This document shows positions 4,824-58,749 of a stretch of 64,000 nt of DNA, piece after piece; within the stretch, counting starts at the first letter, position 1; each line of letters begins with the position of its first letter. The stretch comes from Branchiostoma floridae. Taxonomy: Eukaryota; Chordata; Leptocardii; Amphioxiformes; Branchiostomatidae. The stretch covers positions 21,795,914-21,859,913 of the forward strand of contig NC_049983.1 in the NCBI RefSeq assembly GCF_000003815.2. Direction: 5' to 3'. The notes beneath the pieces are model-generated. The model was not told where the DNA came from and searched no databases. It worked only from the letters and a program-made list of their open reading frames with translations. The translations under genes and the position numbers were made by a program.

Positions 4824-5039
4824 CAGAAGGGCCTGTATTCAACCTTTTAACAATAAGAAGTCTCGTATAGTCTCAAAATTGACATATTCCTCTACCATCC
4901 ACAATAGTTTCCGTCTCGATGGCGTGCACAGGAGAATAAATACTACCCAAATACTACCCAAACTGCTACGGGAGCCGCGGATAAATACTGATATTGTGTT
5001 CTGCGACCTTAAATCGAATGACTGGGATGATAAACTGAT

Positions 5040-6600
5040 ATGCCAATGATGGATCCTAATGGGACAAACAGCACCGTTTCGAACGCTTCCTTCTACGTTG
5101 CTTACGGCGTCCAAGGGTTCATATCTGTGATAGGACTGCTCGCCAACGCCTTCATCATCTTCCTCCTTGCGCGGTATCCTGCCGTCAGAAGCGTCGCCAA
5201 CGTCTACGTGGGAAACCTGGCCGTGGCTGATTTCGGCTTCTGCCTGTACAGCCTTGTGCAGACGCCGCTGTCCGTACTGGAGGAGGACCCCAGTATGGGT
5301 ACTGATAACGATTCCCTCAGCTACCAAAGAGGGTTTGTTTTTGTTTTCTTTCTTTGTATGCTTCTTCTTACGGTGTTCTTTAATGATTTTGTACAGGTAT
5401 ACTTCACTATTAGTATTCCTGAAGCCTTCTAGTAATTCTCCATACAATGATCGGTTTACGAAGACGACACAGATGACTTGTTTATTTGTTTGTTTGTTTG
5501 TTTATTGCAAAGGACTACTAAACTAGCCGGTGGCTACTACGAAAAGCTAGCATTGCATACTGTTGCATAATGTTCCAGGTTATAAGTATTAGATTTTTTA
5601 CTGGTATTCATAAAGTAGATTAGTTAGTAGATAGCAATAGTCTAGCAACTAGGCCCCACATGGCCATGAACGACAAGAAGCAGAAACTTGAAATGGAGCC
5701 AGTCAAGTAAAGGGATGGGTACCAATGCAACCCTGGCATGATGATGATGGTGACCTGTCATGTATGTACAAGTTGCCATACATTGTACCTGTTACAATTG
5801 TGTCGCGGAATAAAGATCTCTCTCTCTCTCTCATTCCTCCTAGGTGTGACGTCGGTCGCGTCCTTGCCATTTTGTTCGCGTCAGCCAGCGTGTTCCACCT
5901 GACGGCGATCGCCGTGGAGCGTCATCACGCCGTCACGGCTCCCCTGGACCACCTGCAGCACAGAAGCGTCAGGAGGGCCCTGGTGACCTGCCTGGTGTGC
6001 TGGACGGCAGCCATCTTCACTGCAGCGCTCGACACCGTGATACGGAACGTCATCACCCAAACCTGGGACTTCACCGCTCAGAGCCTCTTCGAATGCGTTT
6101 ATCTCAAGTACATTGGCTCTTCAACGAATGGCACCAACCCCTTGCTCTTCCTAGCCATTCTTATATTTGTGATTGCGTACGTAACGCCAGCTTGTGTGAT
6201 GATACCGTTGTACGTCCGTGTCTTTTGGGAAGTCCAAAAGTCTAACAGATTTGCGGCGAGGAATGACGAACAAGCCGTCCGGATGGTGGTCGTTGTCACT
6301 GTTTTCTTCCTGGTCTGCTGGCTGCCGTTCCACGTCACTTCCGTCGTCATCGCGTCATCCGGTTACCATGGAGACGAGGAGGCGCTGCACGCGTGCTGGG
6401 CGTTCGGATTGGTCAACTCGGCCGCGAACCCCTTTCTGTACGCCCTTCTCGGACGGAAGTTTCGCGGGCAGATAAGACAGATGTTCGGCAACGCTGCGCC
6501 GTGCAGAGGGACAAGGAAGCAGAGACAAAGCAATGTCGCCCATCCAGACAGTACCAGCGTAGATACAACAGTCTCCCAGTCTCAAACAACGTACCTATAG
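5040..6600 (+). CDS. Class A (rhodopsin-family) G protein-coupled receptor, two coding exons
   Basis: Exons 5040-5332 and 5844-6600 join in frame (GG|GTTTGT donor, CCTCCTAG acceptor) to give 349 residues. Visible hallmarks: three N-terminal glycosylation sequons (N7, N10, N15), TM1 asparagine N36 in LLANAF, TM2 aspartate D64 in LAVAD, the TM3 cysteine C99, ERH (E123-R124-H125) in place of DRY, CWLP (256-259) in TM6, and NPFLY (293-297) in TM7, followed by an FRGQ helix-8 start and a Ser/Thr-rich tail. The layout resembles peptide-type receptors, but the ligand cannot be named. The start sits before a short polar N-terminus of usual length. Two decayed copies of the last coding segment follow at 6850-7025 and 7165-7260. 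The membrane topology and G-protein coupling are inferred from the family. Confidence 0.9.
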
Positions 6601-9655: not shown

Positions 9656-11481
9656 GTAAGCTGTAACAGCAACATGTAACTGGAGAAAATGATGCGTTGA
9701 TCATTTGCCAAATTAGCATTGCTTGAGAAATTGCAGTAAACCGACCGGTATTATGCCAATGGATGTTATATAGTGTTGTTTTTTTGTTTAGGTGACTGAA
9801 TATCGTTCATAAACTCTGAACAAGATAAAGACACCAAGACAAAGATTTCAACTGAATTACATTTCTTGACGATCGATAAGACGCAAAACATATGCATGCA
9901 CCAGCAAAAATCGCACTCATTCGTTACTTCCTAACATTACATTCTAATTGTTGTAACTTAAAGCCAACCAAAATATTGTTACAGTAGTCTGTCAGAACAA
10001 TTAACGTCCTTGGTCAGAACTGGTCTGGCGAGTTTTACTTCGTGCATGAGGTCCGAGTCTTGTGATGGGTTAACAACTGTGCGACGAAATACAACACAGT
10101 TCTCAGGCTTGCAGCTGTAAGTACGAACGCTTTAATCGCGAATTGGGATTGGGTATTAGGTTTTCAGTATGCAGGGTATCGGTCAGCTCACGTATCCGTT
10201 TTGTAAAGGTATGGCGCTTTGTTCTTTGGCGAGATTGAAATGTTGACCTTTTGGATATAACATGGCTTAACCCTTATCCTACTGGTGTTCCCTATTCGCC
10301 AATTTAACCTTCCAGAGTGTTATTGAGTCATCTGATCAGTAAAACCAGACTTCTCCCATGCTGCTGCTGCAGAGTTTGATCCATTCGGTGTGCTTTGCTA
10401 TATGGACATACCATGTCATATTTAGGTGAGAAATAGCCCCAAACACGGGACCAACATAGGACATGTAGACATGCAAATCAACAATTGCCGTGCATAGTAG
10501 GACTAGGGTTTTTAAACTCTACCTACAAAGGTCTGGTAGTGCGTAAAATGGTGAGGAAAAAGGCATAGATACGTTCATGAAGGTGAGACATCCAGGTTAA
10601 CAATATTCAAATACAATTAAATTTCCGTTTTTATCCAGTCGAATAGGTTAAATTGTATTTGAAAAAATGCATAGGGTTAGTAAATGACACTTGGAAACAT
10701 TTACGACGCCAAGCGAGGAAGCCATATACCTCAGTGAATTTTAGCGCGCTTACTTTCTAAAGTAAGCGTGTGTTTTGCGACAAACATCATTGTCTGTGCA
10801 CGGGACCACGACATAATTGTTACTTGCTGAGCCGCAGGGCTGTCCCCTATGACCCTTCCCTCCATATAGGGACAAAAAATTTGCTTGTTGGACTAAGGAG
10901 GGTAAGTTTGTTAGACAGCGAAGCATTGTCACGCAGTCCTTTTCTGGACGTATAGTTCATCACCAGATCGAAAGTGGTCAACTGTTGGCAGGACTGCTTA
11001 TCTATTTATCAGGCCCCAACATCTCCAATCTGCTAGAAGCTAGTGAGAAGGCCGTGGCTTGGCTGCAGTACTGGCACGGAACGACATGATGATGAAATGT
11101 TGGCACATATTGAGCAGCTCTAAAGCATTGAACTCAGTCTAATTTTCTTAGCCTAAGTTGAAGAGGAAGGACATGCAACATATTTTCATAATCCTACACA
11201 TATTAGTCTGTCAAATTCTGTGCACTCTGAGACTCAAAAAATTAATTTGAAAAAGATGCGGTAGTTTATTTGGATGTAAAAAGGTATTTTGTAGCTTAGT
11301 CTGCTTCTTTGCGCCCTAAAAAGTAATAGCACTACGGTCAAAGCAGTTATTATGTTATATTTGCAGTGTTTATCTATGTCCACTCCTAATGACTTCCGTT
11401 TAATCTTTCACAGATTCTGAAGTAGTTCAGAGGATCACATTTGCATCTTAGTCGTCCGAGCATCCTGGAAGTGCGAACAGA
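9656..11481. other. Probable 5' intron or upstream region of the transporter, no coding seen
   Basis: No supported coding exon. A TTTCACAG acceptor at 11406-11413 lies 68 bases ahead of the transporter start codon, which suggests that the first part of the transcript is spliced and noncoding. Nothing else recognisable was seen. Confidence 0.4.
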
Positions 11482-12507
11482 ATGGTGTTGTCTACGAAGA
11501 GGGATGATCTCGACGAAGATGCCAGTGACGACGAAAAGAAAGCATCTCTGAAGGCGGCAAGAGGACCCCTGCTTTCCTTGGGAGCAACGATTCTCTTCGC
11601 CTTTTCTGCAGAATTCACGGCTCTAAGTAGCAAGGGTGGAATTCCGGGTTTCCAACTCCTATTTTTCCTAAGACTGGCCCAACTTCTGGTAATTCTAGTT
11701 TGCTATCTGATCTTCCGTCCAAAGCTGATAGGCGAAAATAGACGGCAGAATTTTCTTTTGCTTCTTGAAACTATCAACAACAATGTTGCTACCGCCCTGG
11801 TGTATTTGTCCTTCACCTATGCTGCACCAGGCATCGCGTTTGGCATCATCCAAGGGGCCATGCCACTCTTTACGGGCTGTATTGGGTTTATATTTTTGAA
11901 GGAAAAAATTGGCATCATTCCTTGTTGTGGGATTTTAATCAGCATTATTGGGGTGGCTCTGGTCAGCATCGGGATGGCAAACCAGACAACAGACTCCACA
12001 CACGCCATGGTCGTGTCTATCCTCCTGCCTCTTGCTGCTGCCTTCACCAAGGGACCAGACATGGTGCTAGCACGCGCTATCATGAAGGACATGTCAGGAA
12101 TTACAATTCTGGTATATATAACATTGCTAGGAACTGTAGCTCAGCTCATACTCACCTACTCATTCGAGACTCCCTTTTGGGTAATGTCGGCAGAGACTGC
12201 TGGGTACGTAGCGGGGCTCGGCTTGTCCCAGGCTATAGCCATGTTGTTTTTCCTGGCAGTACTCAAAGTTGAGAAGGCAGCCATTGCTGTTGCATTGCGC
12301 ACACTTGTGATACCGATCACCATCCTTCTGGACTATCTTATCCTGTCAAAGGTACCGACTGAGCTGAAGTGGGCAGGTTTGTCTCTAGTGTTGTTGGGGA
12401 CAATCGTAGTCGGCATCTATACTTGGAGGACACATCATGAGGACCAGAAACGCATTGATCTTCTGAAAAAGCTGGATTTTTCTCCTCAGGAAACTGACAC
12501 TGAGTAA
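11482..12507 (+). CDS. EamA/DMT-superfamily transporter, SLC35-like, single coding exon
   Basis: 341 residues in one uninterrupted exon. After an acidic, Lys-rich cytosolic N-terminus (about 1-28) there are about ten hydrophobic helices arranged as two five-helix halves, the drug/metabolite transporter pattern. The first half contains LKEK (around 138) after helix 4, a common EamA signature, and the second half ends helix 9 with a short loop before a final helix and an acidic tail (SPQETDTE). The length is typical for SLC35G-type proteins. The likely role is small-solute or nucleotide-sugar transport across a plasma or secretory-pathway membrane; the substrate is unknown. Lack of coding introns fits SLC35G-type genes or an old retrocopy. 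An acceptor at 11413 suggests a spliced 5' leader. Confidence 0.85.
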   Translation: MVLSTKRDDLDEDASDDEKKASLKAARGPLLSLGATILFAFSAEFTALSSKGGIPGFQLLFFLRLAQLLVILVCYLIFRPKLIGENRRQNFLLLLETINNNVATALVYLSFTYAAPGIAFGIIQGAMPLFTGCIGFIFLKEKIGIIPCCGILISIIGVALVSIGMANQTTDSTHAMVVSILLPLAAAFTKGPDMVLARAIMKDMSGITILVYITLLGTVAQLILTYSFETPFWVMSAETAGYVAGLGLSQAIAMLFFLAVLKVEKAAIAVALRTLVIPITILLDYLILSKVPTELKWAGLSLVLLGTIVVGIYTWRTHHEDQKRIDLLKKLDFSPQETDTE

Positions 12508-14070: not shown

Positions 14071-14538
14071 CGCACTCAGACACACACACACACGAAAACG
14101 AGTCTCACACGCAGAGGTTTGCCTCTCTCACTCAAGTATTGAAAAAGGGTCACACACACGCACACACATACAGAGATTTTCTCTCACACAGGTATTGAGA
14201 AAGGTAACTCACTCGCAGAGGCTTGTCTATCTCACACAGGTATTGAAAATATAATGGTCTCACATGCATACACAAAGGTTTTTCTCTCTCACACAGGTAT
14301 TGAGAAGGGGTTTTCATACACCGACGTCTTTCGACACATGTATTGAAAAGAGTCTCGCTCACACGCGCAAATAGAGGATTTTCTCTCTCACTGAAAAAGG
14401 TTGCACACGCACAGAGGTTTTCGCTCCAACACAGGCGTTAATTGAAAATGGTCTCATATGATAAGCGCATGTAGTGGTTTTCCCATCCAGCACAGGTATT
14501 GAAAAGGGTCACTCTCTCTCTGTCTGTCTCTCTCTTTG

Positions 14539-14573
<35 letters not shown>

Positions 14574-15359
14574 CGCTCGCTTTCGCTCACACACAAACAC
14601 ACACACGCGCGGAGACACACACAGATTTCCTCTCCTACGCAAGTATTGAAAAAAAGTTTCACTGACACAGTACCCCGTCATCAGGTAGCCCCCGTACTCC
14701 CGTGTCCATCCTTCCGGGCACGTCTTGCGGGCGGGGATCATCAGCTGCGCGCGGCGAGAGAGGCAGTAACAGGCCGCACACGGCACCTCGCGGTCATCAA
14801 CCGTCGCCTCATCGTATGGCGCGTCCGTGTTGAGCTGGTACTCCGCGCCGTGCATGTAGGCCTTCAGCCCCTCCACCCCGTCTGTAAAGCGTCCCCACTC
14901 CGGGTCGGCAGGCAGGCACTGGTAGTCGCTCCCTCCTCCCTTCTCACTCCACAACGCCCCGCCGGCTAGACCAGAGTACACCGTTACCGTGTCCGTACTC
15001 TCGTTACAAGCTGTTCGTCCCCATCGGATGTACACAGCTCCTCCACCAGACCCCTCAGCTCCTTGAGTCACCGTTTGTCCCGAATCTCCTTTTCCTCCTT
15101 TCTGCCCCTCCGGCCCTCGCGGTCCCAGCTTCCCGGGTCGGCCCGTCGCCCCCTTCTCTCCCCGGTCGCCCCTCGGTCCCGGCGGCCCGGCGTCCCCCTT
15201 CGGTCCGGCTGGAGCCGCCACCGTGATGTTATTGACGTTGTTGTTTGCCGTCTGAGTCGGGCAAGAGCCTTCCTGGCTTTCGGATTCTGCGGCAAAGCAG
15301 GCAGAGAACAAGAACAGGACATTAAGTGCGGCCAAGACAACCATATTTTGATGACCCAT
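13674..15359 (-). CDS. Secreted short-chain collagen C4-like protein
   Basis: Exons on the minus strand 15359-14674 and 13857-13674 join with phase 2 (GG|GTACTG donor, CAACAG acceptor) to give 289 residues. Residues 1-24 form a signal peptide (core VVLAALNVLFLFSACFA). A collagenous run of Gly-X-Y triplets (about residues 50-95, starting GPKGDAGPPG) is followed by a compact Cys-containing C-terminal domain with the family marks YIRWGRTAC, VYSGLAGG, CLPADPEWG, GAEYQL, CAACYC, PARKTCPEGW and, in exon 2, NEFVCVDGEPE and GSLPCPPYVEGRELTCVVC. This is the layout of sponge/cnidarian/amphioxus short-chain collagen C4-like proteins; it probably trimerises extracellularly. A foldback element lies 112 bp upstream of the start. 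The intron is full of simple repeats and carries a second copy of the exon-2 5' end. Confidence 0.88.
13926..14668. repeat. Simple-sequence and minisatellite block in the collagen-like intron
   Basis: It contains (AC)n at about 13951-13985, a ~60-70 bp minisatellite built on CTCTCACACAGGTATTGAAAA repeated at least eight times between 14126 and 14655, and a (CT)n tract at 14515-14580. Frames through it are low-complexity and not coding. Confidence 0.85.
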
Positions 15360-15470
15360 CCTGTTTTAGATGGAGAAAAGAACGGCTTCCACTGCTAGAA
15401 GGACAGAATTTGTTCAAATTGTCATTGAAGCTAGCCTTGAGTCCAGAAACGCACAGAAGACAACATTCCA

Positions 15471-43750: not shown

Positions 43751-43929
43751 TTTGTCGAAGTATTAGAGCCGGTCCGGCAAATACACTTGTGTAAACTACA
43801 GGCCACTTGCCGAGGGTACTAGTGAACAGGTGTTGTGTTGTGTGGCCGTATCGATAGCTTCACCTGTGTTACCATAGTGACGGACGCCACGGAACTATGG
43901 GTAGAGAGGTCAAATGAGGTCGAACCAAG
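43751..43929. promoter_or_regulatory. Bidirectional promoter of SPMIP1-like and C1orf74-like genes
   Basis: The two start codons diverge across 179 bases. At 43868-43881 the string GTTACCATAGTGAC matches the RFX X-box layout GTTRCC-AT-RGYAAC with one mismatch in the right half. RFX factors control ciliary genes, which fits an axonemal product on the minus side. Confidence 0.6.
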
Positions 43930-44760
43930 ATGGCCGCCGAACCTTCTCTTCTCACCCGTTGGCGGCAAGTTTTGTGCAACGTTTTCGGCAAGAAGTCGGC
44001 TAAATACGCGGCAGATTTGATGTGTGACGTTTTATCCGTGGACAGAGGTTTAAAACCTGCGTTCCTGGTTGATTATGGCGGCTTGGGTTGCTCGAAAATG
44101 ACAGTTTTTACCGAGGAGTTGCTACGTTCGGAACTGGTACAGCACAGACTTGCCGTTCTGACGGTGGGTTCTGACGTGTTGGTGCTCAATGCAGACGCCA
44201 GCGTGACGCATTTACAGTCCGTGCAGTCTGACTGGGACAGATTCGTGGTGGACGTGACCCTCGGGCTACCAGAACCAAAACCAGCGACGGGATTCTGCAC
44301 CCAGACTGTGCGGGACTGTGCACGGGATGTGGCGAAGTGCATTGCCACCATGCGGAAAATGTCGGTACTGCAGAGCGATATTGCACTCCAAGAAAATTGG
44401 AATATTTCCACTCTGTTCGGACTCCTTGTGGGGTACCCCGTCCTGTATTGGTATGACCCCACACAGCATGACACGTGCCTGTCTATGGTACCATTGCTAG
44501 TTTATAACGTTTATGCGTGTTTGGACTTGAATACAGCACCGCCTTTGGGTGAGAAATCCGTAAGCAACTGTCCAGAACAAAGAAATCATCACAAGCACAA
44601 ACTGTACTCATTCAGTGTTCCTAAGAATGTAAAGCAAGACTTCAGCAAACAGATTGACCGCTGGTTTGAGAGGGTGCAGGAACTCTTCGCCCTCCAGGAC
44701 TTGTTCTGTTGTTTGGAGATGACATGTAGTGAGATGACACTCCCAACTGTAGCATTGTGA
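43930..44760 (+). CDS. C1orf74-like protein (UPF0739, DUF4504)
   Basis: A single coding exon of 276 residues. It has no signal peptide or membrane segment. It resembles the vertebrate C1orf74 family in length, in the early LDYGG-like segment (FLVDYGGLG), in a GLLVGYPVLYWYDP motif followed by LSMVPLLVYNVY, in KLYSFSVPKNV, and in a terminal EMTLPTVAL. The function of the family is not known. The ATG is the first in frame after the short bidirectional promoter. The family call comes from recalled motifs and is moderate. Confidence 0.7.
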   Translation: MAAEPSLLTRWRQVLCNVFGKKSAKYAADLMCDVLSVDRGLKPAFLVDYGGLGCSKMTVFTEELLRSELVQHRLAVLTVGSDVLVLNADASVTHLQSVQSDWDRFVVDVTLGLPEPKPATGFCTQTVRDCARDVAKCIATMRKMSVLQSDIALQENWNISTLFGLLVGYPVLYWYDPTQHDTCLSMVPLLVYNVYACLDLNTAPPLGEKSVSNCPEQRNHHKHKLYSFSVPKNVKQDFSKQIDRWFERVQELFALQDLFCCLEMTCSEMTLPTVAL

Positions 44761-47543: not shown

Positions 47544-48793
47544 ATGTTTACCCTGCTGTTGATATCAGCTATCATAGCAACAGCATCTACCAACCTACCC
47601 AGCTGGTGGTGAGTTTATCCTACTCTTGGTATCTGCGCACTAAACCGAACCGACACTAGCCTTTAAGTGACCGATCCAGCTGAATATGCACACTGTCCAG
47701 GCAGCTAAAGTCAGGAGTAACCAGACTGATGCGCATGGCAGAAGAAAATCGGATCCTGGGAAAAGAACTCTGCAACAGACCTGAGTCAGCTTACAGATGT
47801 GCCCTGTGTCGCAGAGACTGTCATTCTCGTATAGGACTGTTTAGCCACAGTCGTAGCTGTAGGGCTGATAGCAATTAGGATTTTACCTTGGTAAATATTG
47901 ACCGAAGGAGGCCATATATATATATATAGCCTTTAACGCAAACTATGCTCCAAGCAACGGTCGTTGGGAAAATCGTAACCTTTTCCTCATATGCCGTATT
48001 TTTCTGTAAGCTGGAGCGTGAGACCCACCAAAGTATATCAACTTACTGATATGATAAGTCTAAAAACAAACAAACAAACAAACATACAAGGTCGTCATAT
48101 TATTTACTGTTGCAATAATGATTGTTCTTGTGTTTTGTTGCAGCGAATACAACGACTACTGGGTAAATACACTTTTCTCCGGTAAGTGATTGTAGACCAC
48201 TTTTCATAACTGATTCACGATCATCTAAAACGTTTTAGAGGGTGAAGTTAACAACAAACATGTACATATACGTAGCTCTTATGTATATGAAGTTTAGTAT
48301 TTGTTATTTCAAGCGTCTCTGTTTGCTTGTTATGCAATGTTTGTTATTCGATGTTGATATATATATATGTCTTGGGTTCCCCTTAACAACTAAATGAAAG
48401 CAAACAAACAAACAATATGTTGTGCTGTTGTACCAATTTCTTAAATTCAACAAAACAGCAAATGGCATCGTGGTGTAATCTATGATTTCTTGGTGTCCTA
48501 TCTAGGCTGCCCAGCGAACCCGCTAAGCTACTGCTGGCGTCCCGAGGCGCAGGGATGCATCAGAGTGTACCGGTCTCATCAGACCGCGGCAGGTGCGCGG
48601 GGTTTGTGTGCTCGGGACGAGGCGCGTCTGGTCTCCATCCACACCGCTCCCGCCAGGCGGTACATAGAGGCGCTCATCTGTGAGGATTCGTGGATCGGGC
48701 TGACCGCAAACAGGGCGAGTAAACTTTTGTTCTTCAGAATGCCTTTTGATCCAATGCGATTAACTCCATGAAAAATAGTTTTTGGCGTGACTC

Positions 48794-48841
<48 letters not shown>

Positions 48842-51800
48842 TGTCTGTGTTTCCGGATATCTGTTGTCAGCATAACTCAATAACTTATGGATGGATTACA
48901 ATGATCTTTGGTATGTGGGAAGACAAACGTCAAGGGCAATTTTGGCCCCCTTGTATGTGATCTTGGTACTGCAGCAGAAATTCCGTTTTTTTAATCTTTT
49001 GATTTGGATGTGTTTGTGCATCTGTTACAAATGTACATGTAACTTAACTTTAACACCATACTTACTCCGGCTATCTGTTCTCCACCTCCTGACTAAGCAG
49101 ACAGGGCACCGCACATGGACGGACGGTGTACCCTTCAACAGCACGGCAGTGGGCGGGATTACAGTGCGGGGGGAGGGGGACTGCACACTGCTGAGGAAAT
49201 CCAGGGACACCGTGGTGTGGGAGGCAGTCTACTGTGCAAGTGAAATACACACAGCGCACGTGATTTGTGAAAAGCGTAAGTATCAAGATCTGTACCGTTA
49301 ACGTTGCAACTACAGTGAAGTACGAATTGGGACAATGTGAAACGTGTGGAAGTGACACACACATGTACAATGATGTAGCAGTTGAGCTTTAAAGATACAG
49401 ATTACGTCAGGGGATTCGAAACCAGGACCTCTGGGTTCTAGGGCAAAAACGACACCACACGTTAAGCTTTACTAACAGAAATACGCCTCTGTTTTGTCTG
49501 ACATGTCTATTGCTCGTCTGTCCAGATGTCACCTGCCCCAGAGGCACAGTGGTCCAACCTGACTGTACCTGCTCCACGGTCATCACAACAACAGCGCACA
49601 CCACTACAGTGGCTCCAGTCGTCACTACAACAGCGCAGGTCAGTACAAGAGCTACTGTCAGTACCAATCCAGTCAGTACAGTGACTCCTGTCAGTACTAC
49701 ACCAGTCAGTACAGTTGCTCCTGTCAGTACTACACTTGCGCAAGTCAGTACTCAAGCTCGGGCTCATGTCACTACTGAACCAGCGCAGGTCACTAGTACA
49801 CGAGCTCCTGCAGTGGGGGGAACATCGACTCAGAGAGTAGCTCAGTCAACGGAACCAAATCGACGAACGCTTGTATCAAGTGAAGCTATGATCGTAACAG
49901 CAACGCAACGCCGGCCGCTTATATCCAGTGAAGCTGATATCGTAACAGCAACGCATCGCCGCAGCTCAATCCCCACGTCACTGAGAAGCCGTTATCAAGT
50001 AACACAGTCTGCTGCACGTGAGACATCGACAACACCTGCCAGTTCTAGCCCACCTGCAACTTCTTACCGTCTGTCATCAACACAGATGCCACGCAGTCTA
50101 CCACTCACGACTACAGCCAACCACGGGATAGCCGAGACCACACAAGGCTACACCATCTTCGTGAGCAATGGTCAGTCTTCTTCTGATTCCCCTTCCCTCT
50201 ATGTAGTCCAAGCGACTGAGCTTGTAGGCCTTTAGCCTGACTAAATCTCGCTTATAGCAGCCCGCCAAACATCCGCCGGCCCCCGGGAGGGGTCAGTTAC
50301 AGCCCTGGACAGCGGAGTTTGTGTTACACAGACTAGTAGGCCTTGATACCAAGTTAAAAACGCCACATAATGTCAGGAAATGTGTTGATGAAGGTTAGAC
50401 ATCTTGGTAGTGTCACTGATGAAAGATAGTGAATGCATGCTCTCTGAAACTTCTGAGAGTTTCCAAAGTCAAATTCAGTTACTAGTCTAAGATCGAGTAA
50501 CTCCTGTTTGGCGCATCACAAAAAATGATATTCGCGTATTATCGTCACCATATAGTAACTGTATAACGTTAGTTCACCTTTATCTGTAGGATAACCTATA
50601 TCCGTTGCTTTCGAAAACAGGTATTAAGGGATATCAAGTTCAAACTAGTTTAGTTTGAACATATTACAACTTGAAACCATCGTCCGTCGACGCGACATCC
50701 CCTTGATACCGTTTGAGTAAACACAACGAATATAGGTTACCCTGCGGATAAAGGTGAACTAGTGTTACAATGTTTTCTCCCCATTCTGTGCAGAGGTCTG
50801 TTATTCCGACGACGGGGCATCATACCGCGGTCCCGTGTTCACGACGCTTTTGGGGAAAACCTGCCAACGCTGGGACAGCCAACTCCCTCACGACCACGAC
50901 TTTCTCCGGACGTACCCGCGATCCGGTCTTGATCTCAACTACTGCCGGAACCCTGGCCAGACCGGCTCCCGACCGTGGTGCCTCACGGCGGACCCTGGCG
51001 AGCTCTGGGATTACTGCAACGTTCCCGAATGTGGTCAGTTGATTTAGACATAATCATTATGTGCAAACAATATCTTACAATCCAGTCCCAAGATCTAGAA
51101 TGCTAAAGGCTTTGTGTATTGATATTAAATCGAATATAACGTCAAAAGCAATGTATTTTGACAAGTAAATATTAAAGCATTACTGGCAACGGCTTAAAAA
51201 ATGGCACAAAACATGCCTCATGCTGAATCATATGCTTTTTGCTTGTAGTGTAATACACATGTGTGAATACCGTCTTTCATTTCGTAATGTTGGTCATTCT
51301 CATTTACCTTCACCAAGAAAGGTGTTTCACCATGTTTTTTGTAGCGTTTGTATGTATATTTGTACTCTAGAAGACCTGGATGGTTTTGTCTTGATGATCA
51401 TATGTTGAATGTCGGTAGGTCTTAACGAGACCTCGAAATGAAGTGACTTTGGACCCCCTAGCGGCTTGCTTAGACGCTGCAGCGGAACGTCCGGTATTGA
51501 TATCCTTTGTTTATCATCACTTGTTCAGGTAAGAACTGTGTTGAAGGCATCGGTGAGACCTACCGCGGTAACGTGTCCGTCACCCAGTCCTACATACCCC
51601 CGTCAGAGCTAGAAATGATAAGATTTGGGGCCCCTAGTGGCTTGCTCCGACACAGCAGCGGGTTTTGATATGTCATTATTATCACTACTGTTTACCATGA
51701 TTTGAATACCCTTTGCAGGTAAGAGCTGTCTTGAAGGCATCGGGGAGACCTACAGAGGGAACGTGTCCGTCACTCAGTCCCGCATCCCCTGTCAGAGCTG

Positions 51801-54800
51801 GAACAGCCAGTCCCCCCACCAACACGACCGCACCCCGGGAACTACAGCCAGGACGGCCTCGTGCTGATACTGTATTGATATCTGTTTATCATCACTTTTT
51901 CAGGTAAGAACTGTCTTGAAGGTATCGGTGAGACCTACCGCGGCAACATATCATTCACCCAGTCCCACATCCCCTGTCAAAGCTGGGACAGCCAGTCCCC
52001 CCACCAACACGACCGCACCCCCGGGAACTACAGCCAGGACGGCCTCGAGCGGAACTACTGCCGCAACCCGGGACTGACCGGTGCCAGGCCGTGGTGCCTC
52101 ACCAGCGACCCTAGCGTCAGATGGGATTACTGCAATGTTCCAAGATGTGGTGAGACTCCAATGTTTTATTTATTGGTTTGACTGTTCAGCACGCACAATC
52201 TGAGAGTTGCCCAACTAGCCTGTGGCTATTACAAAGTATTCTCCAAGCAGAGGTTGGGTCGCAGAGACAGTAGTGGTCGGAATTTTTGCCGGCTTGCTCC
52301 CCTCACGGAACGAGCCGGCAAAAAACCCGACCACTACTATTTCCAACCTCTGCTTGAAGAATATTTATAAAGAGCTAGCCCTGCTGACAGAGAGACAAAG
52401 ATAATAAAAAAAAAAGAACATGACTGAATGATTATCAAGACCACTCTTCTAAGTACATAAAATCATCTTTTTCAGACGGCACTTGTGTTGCAAGCGATTG
52501 TGAAAGCGAGCGGCAAGAGTCATCTGAAGGTGCGTTTTCTGATTTACTACTGTAACGGTGTATTGAGTTATCGCGCTGAGCTTTATGAACAACGTCTCCA
52601 ATTCAGTGAATCGAGTCATTGTTCTGGGACCTCTTTGCATGTATACATGATACCTTGGTACTACTGCAAAAGAGCTTCCATGCATGTTTTGTATCTTTTG
52701 ACTTGGACATGCTATGCTCTTGATTTTGTGGTGGCAGATAGCTTGTGATGTGAGAAAAACTTTACTTAGTTTGGGCCCCTAGCATTTTGCTCTGAAACTG
52801 CAGGGGCATTTTTTGTCAAAATTTTTCAAGGCGCATAACAGAACATAGGAACGATGGATTTCCATCATATTTAGCATACTGGTATCTTTGGCAGAGATAT
52901 GCATAATGAAGTGCAAAATATGCAAATTTTTGACGTAATTTGCATACTTAATGAGAAAAATCTATACTCAGTGTTTTCCATTATAGGACTCAAATACATG
53001 TAACGTTAATATTTTCCTCTGTTCTCTAATCAGGAAACACGACGGCAAGCGGATGGAACCCCGCGTGGGGGCCGTACCCGGGTGCTGCAGCTTCCTCCCC
53101 GGAGGAGGCGCTCAGTCCGTCCGACGGGGGAACGTGGGAGGAGTGGAAGGCATGGTCCACGGGGAGCCCACTGCCCAGCGACTACGACTCTACTGTCAGT
53201 CCGGTAGAGCTCCTGGGCGGTAGGTGGACGTTGTATTGTAAGACGTACCCCAGCAAATTGGGACACGCCACAACAGAAGGACGTGTCATTTTAAGAATTC
53301 CTCCTATATTGTAACACAGTGATATAGTCATGAGCTTCAATTGTTTCCTTTCGTGACTGAAATGTTGTTGAAAGAGAACTGCTTCAATTTCTAATAAAGC
53401 GAGACAATTCTTTCTGGCCATGTTTTACAGGGAAAAGTCTTCCAACATCTTCAGGGGTGAAAATCCGTCAAGTCGACTACCTGGACGAGAAGAAAATGGT
53501 ACTCAAACTTATAATGGTAGAGTAGAGATTACTGGAGAATTGGGGTCGTCCGTTGTACTCGAGCTTTTTTTTGACATCGGAGAGTACACATAATGTTAAA
53601 TAGTAAACATGATCTCATATTATGCAGTTAACCACGATCTGCCCTTTCACTGGTCGCCACAGGGAAGACGGGCGCCATGTAAGAGCATTTACATGGAAAT
53701 TCACCTGGCTGTTTTGCACGCCTGCCCAAAACTAATATAGGTATGTCTTCGAACTGTCTGAGTAAAAAGGTGCATATCAAATACATGTAGTTCTGGCCTT
53801 TCTCTGAAACATAAACCATGTTGTTTTCTGCAGGAGCTGAGTTTGCTGATGACCTTCAAAGTTGCCTGGAGTGACGTCAGGCTGCAGGGTTTGAGCCAAG
53901 GCTGGGTCCCCGTCCCCTCTCATCTCTTGTGGCTGCCGCCGTTTAGATTCGGCAAGTCAGTCATCGCAGGTATGCACAAACTTCGGTAGCTTGTGTTACT
54001 TCTTCAGATAGGCGTGGATGTGGTAGAAGTAATGCTTAGGTAAAATGGGAGGGTGGAGACAACGAAGGCAAGGCAGTAATACCATTATCATCGCAGCTTT
54101 AGTCCAGTTCATTTCACGATCATGTCATCTAGTCTCTATAACGGCAAACTAATCTGGTCGGGGCTGAAATTTGGCCCATCCCCGCAAATGGTTGTTGGGC
54201 TGCTATAAGCGCAGTTTTGTCAGGCTAATCTATATCACATATAAAACCAGATTCTTTCAGACCTCCTCAGTGTCACTGGCAAAAGATAGTGGATACTATC
54301 TGAAACGTCTGACCGTTTCCAAAATCATACCCAGTTGCTTGTGTACGTAACTGCTTCTTGGTGTGCCTTATTACCAGGGTGTGTAATCTTCATTCTTTGC
54401 AGCGAAAGAAGCCAGATCTAGTAGTGGCAGCAACCAGATGAGCAGCAGCAACACGACCGCCTCATCAGACGGAGACACCAGCTCCGTGTCCACCTGGCTG
54501 TCTCCTGATGGACAGGTCAGCCACAGCATGGCGTGAGTATGGCCACAAGTTCTAAACTGTTTATTGGCCTCTTTGGTTAGATTATGAATAAGCTAGGAAT
54601 GATAGTTTAAAAAATGTCAAAATGATAAAACACGAGTCAACCGAAACTTGACGGTGTTTTCTTTGTGTTGTCCGTTTTACTATGGGTTCTATCAATAAGG
54701 ACCAGTCTTCATTCGAAGCTAGAAATGTCAGTTTTCATGATGATGTTTGGAGTGCGGTGCACACAATGTCCAGACAGGTCAGAGAGATATCACCACGTGG

Positions 54801-55601
54801 CTGATAGGGATATGTATAATCTGCTAACACGTCTTGTACCACAATCCTAGTCGTGAGCTGCGTGTGCAGTGTCCCGTGGATCTCCACCGGTTCCCAATGG
54901 ACACTCAGGAGTGCGTGGTTGAGCTACATGCATGTAAGTCGGTTTGTGCCTTCATCTTGCTTGCTTAAGCCAAGTCCCGCCAGTATTAAGTCAAGATGAC
55001 TGCCCATGTGTCTCTGTTGTCTCATTGCTTGATATGTGCTGTCACCCTTAAGGCCTGTGTCCTTCTTGAGTATGTCAATGTAGGCTGCTGCCGGTCTTCC
55101 TGACCTTCTCTTCTCTTAACACCTTCATGTATATCATGAAAAAACAACTCAGGCTTTCCTTTTAGGTGTATGGAGATCTAGTGCAATGTAACGTTGTTCT
55201 TTTTTTAAATTAATATAACGTTAAGTGAAATCCCGACTTTCAGATGGAGGCACAGTGTTTGCACTTGCTGTGACGGACGAGTCGCCATCGCCGCTGTCTA
55301 TTGACCTGACTAATGTCCTGTCACAGTATGTAGTGACCGGGACACGGATCAAAGCAAGCGTTAACTCCATGCAGGGGCAAGGTAAGATTTTACGATCTTC
55401 TACTTCGGAACGGACGTCAATCTTAGATATATCAAAGGATCAAAGCAAGTATTCTCCATGCGGGGTGAAGATGAGCTTTTGCGGTCCTCTATTTGAAGTA
55501 GTGACGTCAAAATACCTATCTACCTATGTACTTAGTACCTTGACATCCAGGTCTTTGGGGGACAAGTCAGATACGAAGATAAAAAGTTGTCTCCAGGCCC
55601 T

Positions 55602-55640
<39 letters not shown>

Positions 55641-58600
55641 TGTCAAATGCGACGTGATAGCAATAAGGGCGACCTACTTCCTCGATTGGGTAGCTTGTAT
55701 ATCAAGTAAGAACAGCCGACATTTCCTCCTTGTTTTTCCCGTTCAGTTTTCATTTACTTTGTTACAGTTTTCACTTATTTAGTTTGTCAAAGAATTGTTT
55801 TACCTACGTAAAAGCACAAGGATTTGGAGATCTGTATATGTGTATGAATCAATGTAGCAATCAATCAACAAACGAATTCACATTCTGTTTCCGAAAGATC
55901 TTCCGTGTGAGTACTTCTCCCAATCATGTTCGACCAAGCGCGACGCCGAGCCGTGTGCGGCGATGAGATACTGCGACCCGAGCGGCGGCCGGTGCCAGCA
56001 GTGTGCGGAGTACATGGGCGACTGCCTGGCGATCCCAACCAACTGCTCCGCGCCATCAGGTACCTCATTGTATTTTTTTCGAGTACACGTTATTTCAGTA
56101 CAAAATATAAAACCCTCACCAACAAGCTTTCAGTCGGTTTTATAACCCTTCTCAAGTTGAAGTGGCTTGAACCCTACGTCACGTGATCCGAACGACAGTG
56201 TGACCGTGACGTCAGCAACGGGTCAAAGAAGCCCTGTCAGTATCGGCCTTGCGTCTGTTAAAACGAGTTAAAGAGGCCATCTACACAGTAGTCCATTGGC
56301 CATCCCTGATCAAAGACGGGGGCCGCAACCGACTGCCGGGCATCTTTGACCCGTTACTGAGGCCACACTTCCAACCAGGCCACGTGACTTAGTCTTTGGG
56401 TCATTCAGTCTCAAGAAGGAATGGCGGACAGACAAAAAAATGGTTGGTGAGTGCTTTATATTGCGTACGGAATTCATTGTATTCATGCCGAGGAAGAGTA
56501 ATGGACGTCACTCAAAACGTCTGAAAGTAATCAACAATATTTATCCAGTTGTAGAGATTGAATTGTCCTAAGTATTGTTTCTCCCGGCGAATGTCTAACC
56601 TTCGGAAACGTAATGTTAAAAACCTTTACTATTTTACCATGTCGATTACCGTCACAAATTGACCTTGATATGGACACCTTATACCTGGTGCTCTGATAGC
56701 TTATGGCACCTAACATCTTTTTTCTGTGCTTCACAAGTTTGATCATAATATTTCACCGTTCCCCATCCAGACAGCTCACCGCGGTCGTACTCCACGCTGG
56801 CGGTAGGGATCCACCTCCAGCGCCGCCTGCCGTACTTCATCTTCCGCTTCTACATCCCGACAACCATCGCGGTGGTGGTCTCCTGGATGGCGTTCTGGAT
56901 CCACCACACCGACTCCTCTCCCAGGGTCTTCATGGGCACGGTCACGTACCTGGTCATGGTCAAGCAACGGGCGTCTATGACTCCCATGCCTTATGTGAGT
57001 ATATGTGAGTTAGACACTAGACACGTGAAATGTAAGGCATCCACCATACCGAATTTTCTCCCAGAGTCTTCATGGGCACAGTCACGTACCTGGTCATGGT
57101 CAAGCAACGGGCGTCTATGACTCCCATGCCCTATGTGAGTTTAACATATTCACAAAACACAATTGCCCCTTTCTTTGGTAGCAACTTTCACACAACTTAC
57201 ATTACTGTCCCTGTCCTTGGTGCTGAATGATATTCACAACAACACTACTGTCCCTGGTGCTGAACGTCTATGTCACCCATGCCCTAGGTGAGTTAGACGC
57301 TAGACACGTCTATGACACTTATGCCCTATGTGAGTTAGATACGTCAATATGGCACCTATGCCCTGTGTGAGAAACCTTCAGAAATGTGGCCTTACTACGC
57401 GGTGAACCATTTAGCAAAAAGACAAGGAGAGCAAATGCCAATGCTGTTGTATCTGTTCCAACAGGTTTCCTACACCAGAGCCATCGACGTGTGGTACCTG
57501 GGCTGCCTGGTGTTCGTGGTGCTGGCCATGTTGGAGTATCCTGTTGTACATGTCATGGAACGAACCAAGGGGAAGGTACTACAATGCAGTGCTATATACA
57601 TATAACATTAGCATCCATTGATTATATCCATATGTGATGTTTCCCCCAAACCTATTATCAGATAACGGTGCACACACCAATTCTTCCGCGACAGGGGTCG
57701 AGATAGTGCGCGACAAAAATGGGACGAAAGGGTCTCGAGGGTCCGTGTTTGAGATCAAATTTCTCATAATCTGCTGCGAAGTGGCATTTAATACTGGCAT
57801 GGCTAAAAAGCGTAAGAAGTGATGTGCTTTTGGTGCAAATTGGTTTTGGGCCCGAGTGTCACTTCCTTGTATTTCTACGCGTTGGAAGTGATTCGCCCGT
57901 TGTCCCAGATTCCCCGTCCATATGCGGTCTGTGAGCCGTGTTGCTATGCCTCGCGCGTCGGGTTATTGTAAAAATCTCAGTGTTACGATTTTCTTTATTT
58001 TTTGCTTGATTAATTTTAGATGTATTCTCTTTCCGACAATATCAGTCATTTTCATGACTGAAATATAGGTGATGGGTTTATTTCCACGTCAAAATTCCCC
58101 TTTTCTTGCATACTTTTTTACGTGAAAAAAACTTTTCTCCCCCCAAAATTATGACAAGTAGAGAGAGTGAAGAAACTGAAAACCGGCTGTTCTTAAAGCT
58201 GGAGTGATACCCTTCATTCCCATATACGGCTTTTCTGCTTTAGATTTATTTTCTTGAAGAGACGGCCTCTCGACTTGAGGGTGCGCAGCCTCGATTTGAG
58301 ACCCCAAATAAACTGGGGTGTGCACCGATAAGGCCATGTTAACTTGATTACACTACATATGGATCACATGGGATGCCCAAAGCTGATGATGCGAGTGTGA
58401 GAAAAAAAGGCTGAGGCGCTTGGTAAAGAACATTGCCCTAATTTTGATGTGGTCAGGAAGGTTGAATATATCAAATACGCTCAACACAATGTCGCAATCA
58501 GTATTCTCCGGTCTAATGAAAAATCTCTGTCTACAGAAAAACAAGGCAAAGGACAGTCAGAGCCAGCCTATGGTAAAGATCCCCCGTGCGCGACAGAAAG

Positions 58601-58749
58601 GTGTAACACCCGAGGTTCCGCCACCAGCACCGGTCAACACCCCCACGTACAAGAAGCCGGCCATGCTCGACTCTGTAGCACGGGTTGCGTTTCCAACAAC
58701 CTTTGTCATCTTCTTTGCGACGTATTGGATGTTCCTATTCTTTACCTAA
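47544..58749 (+). CDS. Chimeric receptor: C-type lectin-like, mucin, two kringles and Cys-loop ligand-gated channel
   Basis: Seventeen exons (47544-47608, 48144-48181, 48506-48718, 49105-49275, 49526-50170, 50794-51033, 51904-52149, 53034-53219, 53431-53498, 53834-53969, 54403-54532, 54851-54933, 55244-55381, 55898-56059, 56771-56994, 57465-57575, 58537-58749) join with matching phases into 1022 residues. Order: signal peptide (1-16); C-type lectin-like domain (about 35-163); Thr/Ser mucin-like stalk (164-378); kringle 1 (379-457); kringle 2 (459-539); then a complete channel subunit. The channel shows [19 protein letters not shown], the Cys-loop C720-x13-C734, TM1 [15 protein letters not shown]2 from R892, TM3 RAIDVW and TM4 VARVAFP ending FFT-stop. 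TM and TM3 sequence place it with glycine/GABA-type anion channels. It would be a plasma-membrane pentamer with very large extracellular arms. Exon 4 needs the acceptor CAGACAG at 49104 to stay in frame, and exon 14 an AAAG acceptor; these are the least certain joins. Confidence 0.85.
48506..49275 (+). other. C-type lectin-like domain exons of the chimeric receptor
   Basis: Two exons encode [10 protein letters not shown].., ARLVSIHT, the WIGL core ([10 protein letters not shown]), [10 protein letters not shown], and a final [24 protein letters not shown]. Four core cysteines and the WIGL and WTDG marks support a CTLD. EPN/QPD and WND calcium-sugar motifs are absent, so ordinary calcium-dependent sugar binding is unlikely. 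Confidence 0.85.
49526..50170 (+). other. Mucin-like stalk exon of the chimeric receptor
   Basis: One 645-base exon encodes [11 protein letters not shown] then about 200 residues dominated by Thr, Ser, Pro, Ala and Val with short repeats ([29 protein letters not shown] repeated as [13 protein letters not shown]). This is an extended, probably O-glycosylated stalk. Both exon borders are phase 1, as in shuffled extracellular modules. Confidence 0.85.
50569..50763. mobile_element. Foldback MITE in the intron before kringle 1
   Basis: TTAGTTCACCTTTATC..GGATAACCTATATCCGTT pairs with CGAATATAGGTTACCCTGCGGATAAAGGTGAACTA. The same end sequence (CTAGTTCACCTTTATCCACAGGGTAACCTATA) appears at about 28775-28810 in HSPA14 intron 3. 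Confidence 0.7.
50794..51033 (+). other. Kringle 1 exon of the chimeric receptor
   Basis: A single phase 1-1 exon with six cysteines and the kringle marks [37 protein letters not shown] and [10 protein letters not shown]. Confidence 0.92.
51527..51870 (+). pseudogene. Two truncated kringle-exon copies
   Basis: At 51531-51600 a copy keeps [20 protein letters not shown] then breaks into the CCCCTAGTGGCTTGCT dispersed repeat. At 51719-51866 a longer copy keeps [20 protein letters not shown] and [14 protein letters not shown], then loses one C, shifts frame and stops after about 49 codons without a donor. Both retain the CAG|GTAAGA acceptor seen on the intact kringle 2 exon. Confidence 0.85.
51904..52149 (+). 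other. Kringle 2 exon of the chimeric receptor
   Basis: A phase 1-1 exon with six cysteines: [52 protein letters not shown]. The exon begins GTAAGA directly after TTTTTCAG, so the 3' splice site is immediately followed by a 5' splice-site string. Confidence 0.92.
52237..52363. mobile_element. Foldback MITE in the intron after kringle 2
   Basis: TATTCTCCAAGCAGAGGTTGG pairs with CCAACCTCTGCTTGAAGAATA. The interior GTAGTGGTCGG..TTTTTGCCGGC pairs with GCCGGCAAAAAACCCGACCACTAC. The end motif CCAAGCAGA relates it to 4696-4823. Confidence 0.7.
53034..56059 (+). other. Ligand-binding domain exons of the chimeric channel
   Basis: Exons 8-14 encode the extracellular Cys-loop receptor fold: [11 protein letters not shown] (the helix-1/YD..RP region), [14 protein letters not shown] and [14 protein letters not shown] (strands 1-2), [14 protein letters not shown], the Cys-loop [22 protein letters not shown] and [10 protein letters not shown]. 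Exon 14 (55898-56059) is an extra Cys-rich piece placed where loop C belongs. Confidence 0.85.
56178..56388. mobile_element. Foldback element in the channel gene intron
   Basis: GTCACGTGATCC..AGTGTGACCGTGACGTCAGCAACGGGTCAAAGA pairs with TCTTTGACCCGTTACTGAGGCCACACTTCC..CCACGTGAC. Noncoding. Confidence 0.7.
57030..57140 (+). repeat. Duplicate of the TM2-coding exon end with its donor
   Basis: About 105 bases from ATCCACCATACCGA to CCCATGCCCTATGTGAGTTT repeat 56898-57002. From the codon for R892 to the exon end every difference is silent, so the encoded [20 protein letters not shown] is intact. An acceptor-like TTTTCTCCCAG precedes it and the GTGAGT donor is kept. Confidence 0.85.
57250..57375 (+). 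repeat. Small tandem array of donor-region sequence
   Basis: ATGCCCTA(T/G)GTGAGTTAGA(C/T)..CTAGACACGTC recurs three times between 57278 and 57370, derived from the exon 15 end (CCTTATGTGAGT) and the bases after it, which also carry GTTAGACACTAGACACGTG at 57009. Confidence 0.7.
58537..58749 (+). other. M3-M4 loop and TM4 exon of the chimeric channel
   Basis: 71 codons with stop: a short basic, Pro-rich loop ([21 protein letters not shown]), then the canonical [22 protein letters not shown]4 and a two- to three-residue external tail. The whole M3-M4 loop is short (about 45 residues). Confidence 0.9.

Follow-up and report, generated by a model that had tools for sequence, protein, structure and literature searches.

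A probable lancelet gene joining lectin and kringle modules to a Cys-loop channel subunit, and its relatives in the same genome

A stretch of 64,000 nucleotides from the lancelet Branchiostoma floridae (contig NC_049983.1 of assembly GCF_000003815.2, positions 21,795,914 to 21,859,913), referred to here as the window, was analysed together with the assembly that contains it (513 Mb, 431 contigs), in which it lies on the contig designated C5. On the forward strand of the window, between positions 47544 and 58749, there is very probably one gene that encodes a Cys-loop channel subunit bearing extracellular modules, and it appears to belong to a family in the same genome with variable modules upstream of the channel. 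The single fused gene is supported by the intron phases, by the lack of a second signal peptide in the gap before the channel, and by 14 other loci at which modules are placed and oriented alike. A first-pass annotation of the window had drawn the same claim from phases and exon order; with the paralogues the claim is stronger than phases alone could make it, although it is not proven from sequence.

The gene model and the sister loci

The gene was rebuilt exon by exon. Eighteen exons were found to give a single frame of 1040 residues without internal stop, and all 17 introns are GT-AG, 211-961 bp in length (median 433), with phases that chain throughout. The single frame from a signal peptide to the stop after the fourth membrane helix, described in the first-pass annotation, is thereby recovered; its 17 exons and 1022 residues are reproduced when the 54-nt exon at 52476-52529 is omitted, whereas the rebuilt model holds 18 exons. 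Exons 3-9, which cover the C-type lectin domain (CTLD), stalk, kringles and linkers, are bounded by phase 1 on both sides, as had been noted for the lectin, stalk, kringle and linker exons. The frame survives the omission of exon 8 or of exon 15. The features of the gene, with the channel ligand-binding domain abbreviated as LBD, the glycine receptor as GlyR and the membrane helices as M1-M4, are as follows.

47544-47608 (+), exon 1: ATG and hydrophobic signal peptide; donor phase 2
48144-48181 (+), exon 2: short linker; phases 2-1
48506-48718 (+), exon 3: first half of the CTLD; Pfam Lectin_C; phases 1-1
49105-49275 (+), exon 4: second half of the CTLD; Pfam Lectin_C; phases 1-1
49526-50170 (+), exon 5: Ser/Thr-rich mucin-like stalk, 214 full codons, Ser+Thr 36%; phases 1-1
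50794-51033 (+), exon 6: kringle 1; Pfam Kringle; phases 1-1
51904-52149 (+), exon 7: kringle 2; Pfam Kringle; phases 1-1
52476-52529 (+), exon 8: 18-residue linker; GT-AG; phases 1-1
53034-53219 (+), exon 9: linker and N-terminal segment of the LBD, without signal peptide; a like segment in 16 other loci
53431-53498, 53834-53969, 54403-54532 and 54851-54933 (+), exons 10-13: LBD up to the Cys-loop; Pfam Neur_chan_LBD, Cys-loop region aligned to GlyR alpha1
55244-55381 (+), exon 14: LBD strands past the Cys-loop
55898-56059 (+), exon 15: eight-cysteine insert at the loop-C position; phases 1-1
56771-56994 (+), exon 16: last LBD strand, M1 and M2; Pfam Neur_chan_memb, GlyR alpha1 alignment
57465-57575 (+), exon 17: M3; Neur_chan_memb, GlyR alpha1 alignment
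58537-58749 (+), exon 18: short cytoplasmic loop followed by M4 and the stop codon; aligns weakly to GlyR M4, with a corresponding segment in some of the paralogues

When the joined protein was compared with Pfam, both halves were recognised: Kringle at 158.4 bits over two stretches (cut-off 34.3), Lectin_C at 30.4 bits over residues 60-162 (cut-off 22.6), Neur_chan_LBD (PF02931) at 56.9 bits (cut-off 26) and Neur_chan_memb (PF02932) at 47.0 bits (cut-off 28.1). The stalk of exon 5 has no Pfam match.

The joint between kringle 2 and the channel is the critical point of the model. Exon 8 may be optional or not real, and in a splice-site scan its acceptor is outscored by another one. Kringle 2 leaves in phase 1 and exon 9 is entered in phase 1, which makes the two directly compatible, and the introns on either side of exon 8, 326 and 504 bp, are ordinary for the gene. 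The first-pass annotation held that the channel half has no signal peptide of its own and named a separate one as the sign of two genes. Kringle 2 and exon 9 are separated by 884 bp that contain six ATG frames of at least 12 aa, and none of these has the phase-1 donor (6/9 or higher) that would suit a signal-peptide exon.

The genome was searched with the channel half as a single-protein query, and the DNA upstream of the matches was then examined. An exon-11-like match is present at 21 loci, 17 of which, the window included, were examined (left out were C4:11029632, C4:11075539, C2:14277650 and C8:23834363). The exon-9-like start of the LBD is present in 17/17, and extracellular modules lie upstream in 15 of them, with 171-1507 bp separating the last module from the channel or stalk exon. 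In a scan of the family loci 78 module open reading frames were found on the channel strand and none antisense, with a module library drawn from the same loci and enlarged to cover the EGF repeats of the C5 sister locus. The module types differ from locus to locus and comprise CTLD, kringle, TSP1, F5/8C, pentraxin, sushi, fibrinogen-C, SUEL lectin, EGF and PAN. For all 13 sister loci whose module frames were submitted to Pfam, at least one module exceeds its cut-off. The modules of the sister loci are as follows (Pfam on selected frames, except where phmmer is named).

C137: TSP1
C9: two F5/8C-type domains, pentraxin
C17A: Lectin_C, F5/8C
C17B: F5/8C, Methyltransf_FA, Mucin2_WxxW, sushi
C4: PAN, Methyltransf_FA, TSP1
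C4b: SUEL lectin, sushi, Methyltransf_FA, TSP1
C4c: TSP1
C4d: kringle, Methyltransf_FA, TSP1
C9c: Lectin_C, sushi, TSP1
C5 (sister locus): EGF, with 1 of 13 EGF-like frames submitted
C4e: TSP1; PAN below cut-off
C2b: two fibrinogen-C
C19: EGF, Lectin_C
C14: eleven TSP1-like frames (phmmer)

The two remaining loci, C2 and C9b, have no modules within 6.2 and 6.4 kb upstream, respectively. Four Gly/GABA-like genes served as further module-free controls; they were scanned with the library from the positive loci, and for two of them the DNA covered ahead of the exon-11-like segment came to no more than 1.3 and 4.2 kb. The module-free controls, C2 and C9b included, are thus of limited reach. Since C4 and C4b-e, C14 and C137, and C17A and C17B are likely duplicates, the independent cases are perhaps eight rather than fifteen. 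The recovered channel exons are collinear in all nine loci searched. A tree built from channel fragments has too little support to resolve relationships within the family (53% for the grouping of the window gene with C14, C137 and C9).

In C17B a T-rich stalk, a non-repetitive linker of about 60-70 residues and the N-terminus of the channel form one open frame. In a comparison of C17A and C17B DNA the frame is kept in 297/297 aligned columns, with three internal indels of 21, 15 and 24 bases. In the T-rich stalk of C17A itself (L042, reverse strand, about 5640-5650), a one-base difference in a repeat unit shifts the frame and could be a sequencing error or a real variant.

Several further features were noted at these loci and in the window. 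The intron between the kringles contains, at about 51500-51870, two incomplete and degenerate copies of the kringle-2 exon (phmmer 1e-08 and 1e-22), a trace of exon duplication; the intron after exon 16 holds an incomplete copy of the M2 portion of that exon at 57039-57134, with 94% identity over 32 residues. Five module-bearing channel loci, one of them (L058) with a kringle, are clustered on one contig at C4:10976001-11048150, and a Cys-rich segment without Pfam family lies upstream of the channel in the C4 locus (L044, 5135-5389). Elsewhere in the window, a DUF4504 reading frame (43918-44760, 140.9 bits) precedes the channel gene by about 2.8 kb, and two rhodopsin-class G-protein-coupled receptor (GPCR) frames lie at 5034-6600, the second with 117.1 bits to 7tm_1 and the first under the cut-off with 23.6 bits. 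The window also holds an EamA transporter frame (11452-12507, 63.7 bits) and, on the minus strand, a frame resembling collagen (14454-15365, 26.7 bits, just under the cut-off).

The channel half and the ligand question

The closest solved relatives of the channel half are GlyR alpha and GABA-A beta subunits. M1-M3, encoded by exons 16 and 17, align to GlyR alpha1 with 77.9 bits, and M4 weakly, with 13.4 bits. In the same comparison the Cys-loop is recovered as two cysteines 13 residues apart that flank an FPMD motif. A PAR motif precedes M2 in the anion-selective branch of the Cys-loop channels. The corresponding motif is SPRV in the window gene, SARV in C14 and C137 and SARI in C9, so that the arginine is retained and the residues before it are changed. 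The kinship with GlyR and GABA-A channels and the retention of this arginine point to possible anion permeation, though PAR is altered to SPR.

A feature absent from the first-pass annotation is the Cys-rich exon 15, which in the GlyR alpha1 alignment directly precedes the last LBD strand, the position of loop C in glycine receptors. Its eight cysteines are invariant in all five aligned loci (window, C14, C9, C137 and C2). With the window exon as query no convincing match was found in C17A, C17B, C4 or C9b. The window copy belongs to no Pfam family, and two of three sister copies were matched below the cut-off; AlphaFold models of the exon from five sequences had a mean predicted local distance difference test score of 46.5, which is uninformative, and were not used. 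Because the eight-cysteine insert stands at the loop-C position, the classical agonist site looks rebuilt in the subgroup that carries it, the module-free C2 included. With this insert, binding of a classical transmitter in its usual mode seems unlikely.

The solved relatives nearest to kringle 2 are plasminogen and HGF. In lysine-binding kringles an acidic pair, DxD, forms part of the lysine site. When kringle 2 was aligned to plasminogen, its GLTGAR fell opposite DADKG of plasminogen kringle 4, and the acidic pair is missing; kringle 1 was not in the alignment. Sugar-binding C-type lectins carry EPN or QPD, together with WND, as calcium and sugar motifs, and none of these was seen when the translated CTLD was read. 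As both the acidic pair and the sugar motifs are missing, simple lysine or sugar binding by these copies of kringle 2 and the CTLD appears unlikely. For the same reasons the protease-like, matrix or microbial ligands put forward in the first-pass annotation are, on present readings of the domains, not supported as stated.

Weighing the alternatives

Splice sites were also chosen by a naive scan, in which the best-scoring site of each exon is taken independently and about one third of the phases are expected to agree by chance. In the window the phases agree at 9 of the 15 junctions tested (exon 2 was not found by the scan), and the misses are due partly to GT sites within exons and partly to better-scoring acceptors elsewhere. 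Agreement was 13/16 in C14, 12/15 in C9, 7/7 in both C137 and C17B, 2/3 in C19 (with one pair listed out of order), 0/2 in C17A and 0/1 in C5. At six of eight loci (the window, C14, C9, C137, C17B and C19) the phases match at the last joint, which leads into the channel or stalk exon.

A number of observations weigh against a single fused gene. In the window the naive scan misses the joint from kringle 2 to exon 8, and in C9 that from lectin to linker; the last joint disagrees in C17A and C5. The acceptors before the channel are of phase 0 only in C4, C4b, C4c, C4d and C2b (C4d also has phase 2), none is listed before the channel exon of C4e, and C9c and C5 are ambiguous; since the listed phases do not fit, the joints in these misfitting sisters would need an unseen exon, and C4, C4b, C4c, C4d, C4e and C2b were retained in the count of 15 despite their unfit or unreadable phases. 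The ordered set of channel exons recovered in C17A lacks exons 10, 12, 15 and 18, and at further loci other exons are absent. The T-rich, low-complexity DNA of C17B is open in other frames too. The substitutions between C17A and C17B fall 17/20/21 by codon position, with no third-position excess; being evenly spread, they make the comparison, as far as the DNA tells, one of frame conservation and not of strong protein constraint. Of the 15 gaps, 5 contain a signal-peptide-like frame that has a donor (2/7; 3/8 any phase). In the module-free C2 a signal-peptide-like frame has a matching phase-0 donor and a hydropathy of 2.28, and C9b has three such frames; the candidates at these two loci are no better than those discounted elsewhere (hydropathy 2.13-2.38), and the signal-peptide test therefore separates the cases weakly. 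An AATAAA at 52403, about 250 bp past kringle 2, could end a shorter secreted transcript, and an in-frame stop lies shortly 3' of the kringle-2 donor. Finally, some lancelet gene models have been shown to be false fusions, including one that involves a lectin domain (PMC4967905). The weakness of the C2 control and the missed joint between kringle 2 and exon 8 slightly lowered our confidence in the fusion and slightly raised that in two separate genes.

Two adjacent genes, a secreted lectin-mucin-kringle protein and a channel with an unrecognised signal-peptide exon, would accommodate the documented false fusion, the missed joint, and the AATAAA and stop, which together permit a shorter transcript. 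This arrangement is nevertheless improbable, as it is opposed by the six ATG frames of the gap, none of which fits such an exon, by the modules just upstream on the channel strand at 15 of 17 loci without an antisense frame, and by the C17B stalk that shares one open frame with the channel start. The same hexamer and stop, together with the in-frame skipping of exons 8 and 15, would also suit one locus with two products, the full-length channel and a secreted decoy made of modules alone through intronic polyadenylation or splicing; a single hexamer is weak evidence, since four other AATAAA or ATTAAA hexamers occur in the gene, and we regard this as unlikely though plausible. A decaying pseudogene built from duplicated exons would explain the degenerate kringle-2 copies and the partial exon-16 copy, and is hardly credible beside an intact frame of 18 exons with no stop, all splice dinucleotides kept and the channel motifs preserved. 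The modules might instead be passive, anchoring or positioning a channel that still opens to an ordinary small transmitter. Its LBD core, Cys-loop and M1-M4 can all be identified, and with the stalk in between the lectin domain would be uncoupled from the LBD; against this stands the eight-cysteine loop-C insert of the window gene and four sister loci. Passive modules are a serious possibility, not far short of an even chance.

For the single fused gene, a mechanism can be proposed. The predicted protein would carry about 550 extra residues (CTLD, mucin-like stalk, two kringles and linker) ahead of the LBD. Five subunits would assemble into a channel, the modules would form a crown atop the LBDs with the stalk as a spacer, and they might bind extracellular matrix, cell-surface or foreign glycoprotein ligands. 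Once bound, the modules could tether the channel to the ligand or bias its gating, as reported for the N-terminal domain of DeCLIC. We put forward tentatively, as an idea more doubtful than probable, a lancelet class of 'adhesion' Cys-loop channels with at least 15 genes, in which shuffled modules directly gate or bias the pore on matrix, cell-surface or microbial ligands. If true, such a class would be the ion-channel counterpart of the adhesion GPCRs, and fast ionic signalling could be coupled to the recognition of proteins, matrix or microbes. It would also provide natural chimeras for the study of how N-terminal domains act on pentameric channels, and would imply that at least some of the surprising domain combinations of lancelets are real.

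Relation to known channels and receptors

Animal Cys-loop channels have been described as stereotyped, with an LBD and four helices (PMC549065), and extra terminal domains were trimmed before analysis in one study (PMC4795631). A Branchiostoma-only Neur_chan_memb architecture, 269420_PRF0, has been named (PMC4967905). Like the window gene it is a lancelet channel domain in a novel architecture; the comparison is with a one-line mention, its partner domains being given in a supplement. Apart from that mention, no Cys-loop channel with such modules is described in the portions consulted of the open-access literature, preprints and supplements aside. The first-pass statement that no protein of this architecture has been described is thus consistent with that literature, whereas 269420_PRF0 had already been named and the gene is not a one-off, with at least 15 loci in the genome. 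What looks new here is a candidate family of module-bearing Cys-loop channels, little noticed before.

The window protein resembles channels of the glycine/GABA-A branch in its LBD with a Cys-loop, its M1-M4 order and its M2-M3 sequence, and differs from them in its adhesion modules of about 550 residues, its eight-cysteine loop-C insert and its altered pre-M2 motif. With DeCLIC, a calcium-sensitive bacterial channel with an extra N-terminal domain (PMC9897478), and with other bacterial pentameric ligand-gated ion channels that have N-terminal domains, it shares an extra extracellular domain ahead of the LBD; those channels are bacterial, and their domains sense small molecules or Ca2+ and are not of the lectin, kringle or TSP1 kind. 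Lancelet adhesion GPCRs carry Kringle, CTLD, discoidin, pentraxin and TSP modules (PMC2246102). They thus have the same kinds of module before a membrane receptor, in the same animal group, but are seven-helix receptors and not ion channels. The nearest mechanistic precedent is DeCLIC, and the nearest architectural precedent is the adhesion GPCRs of lancelets.

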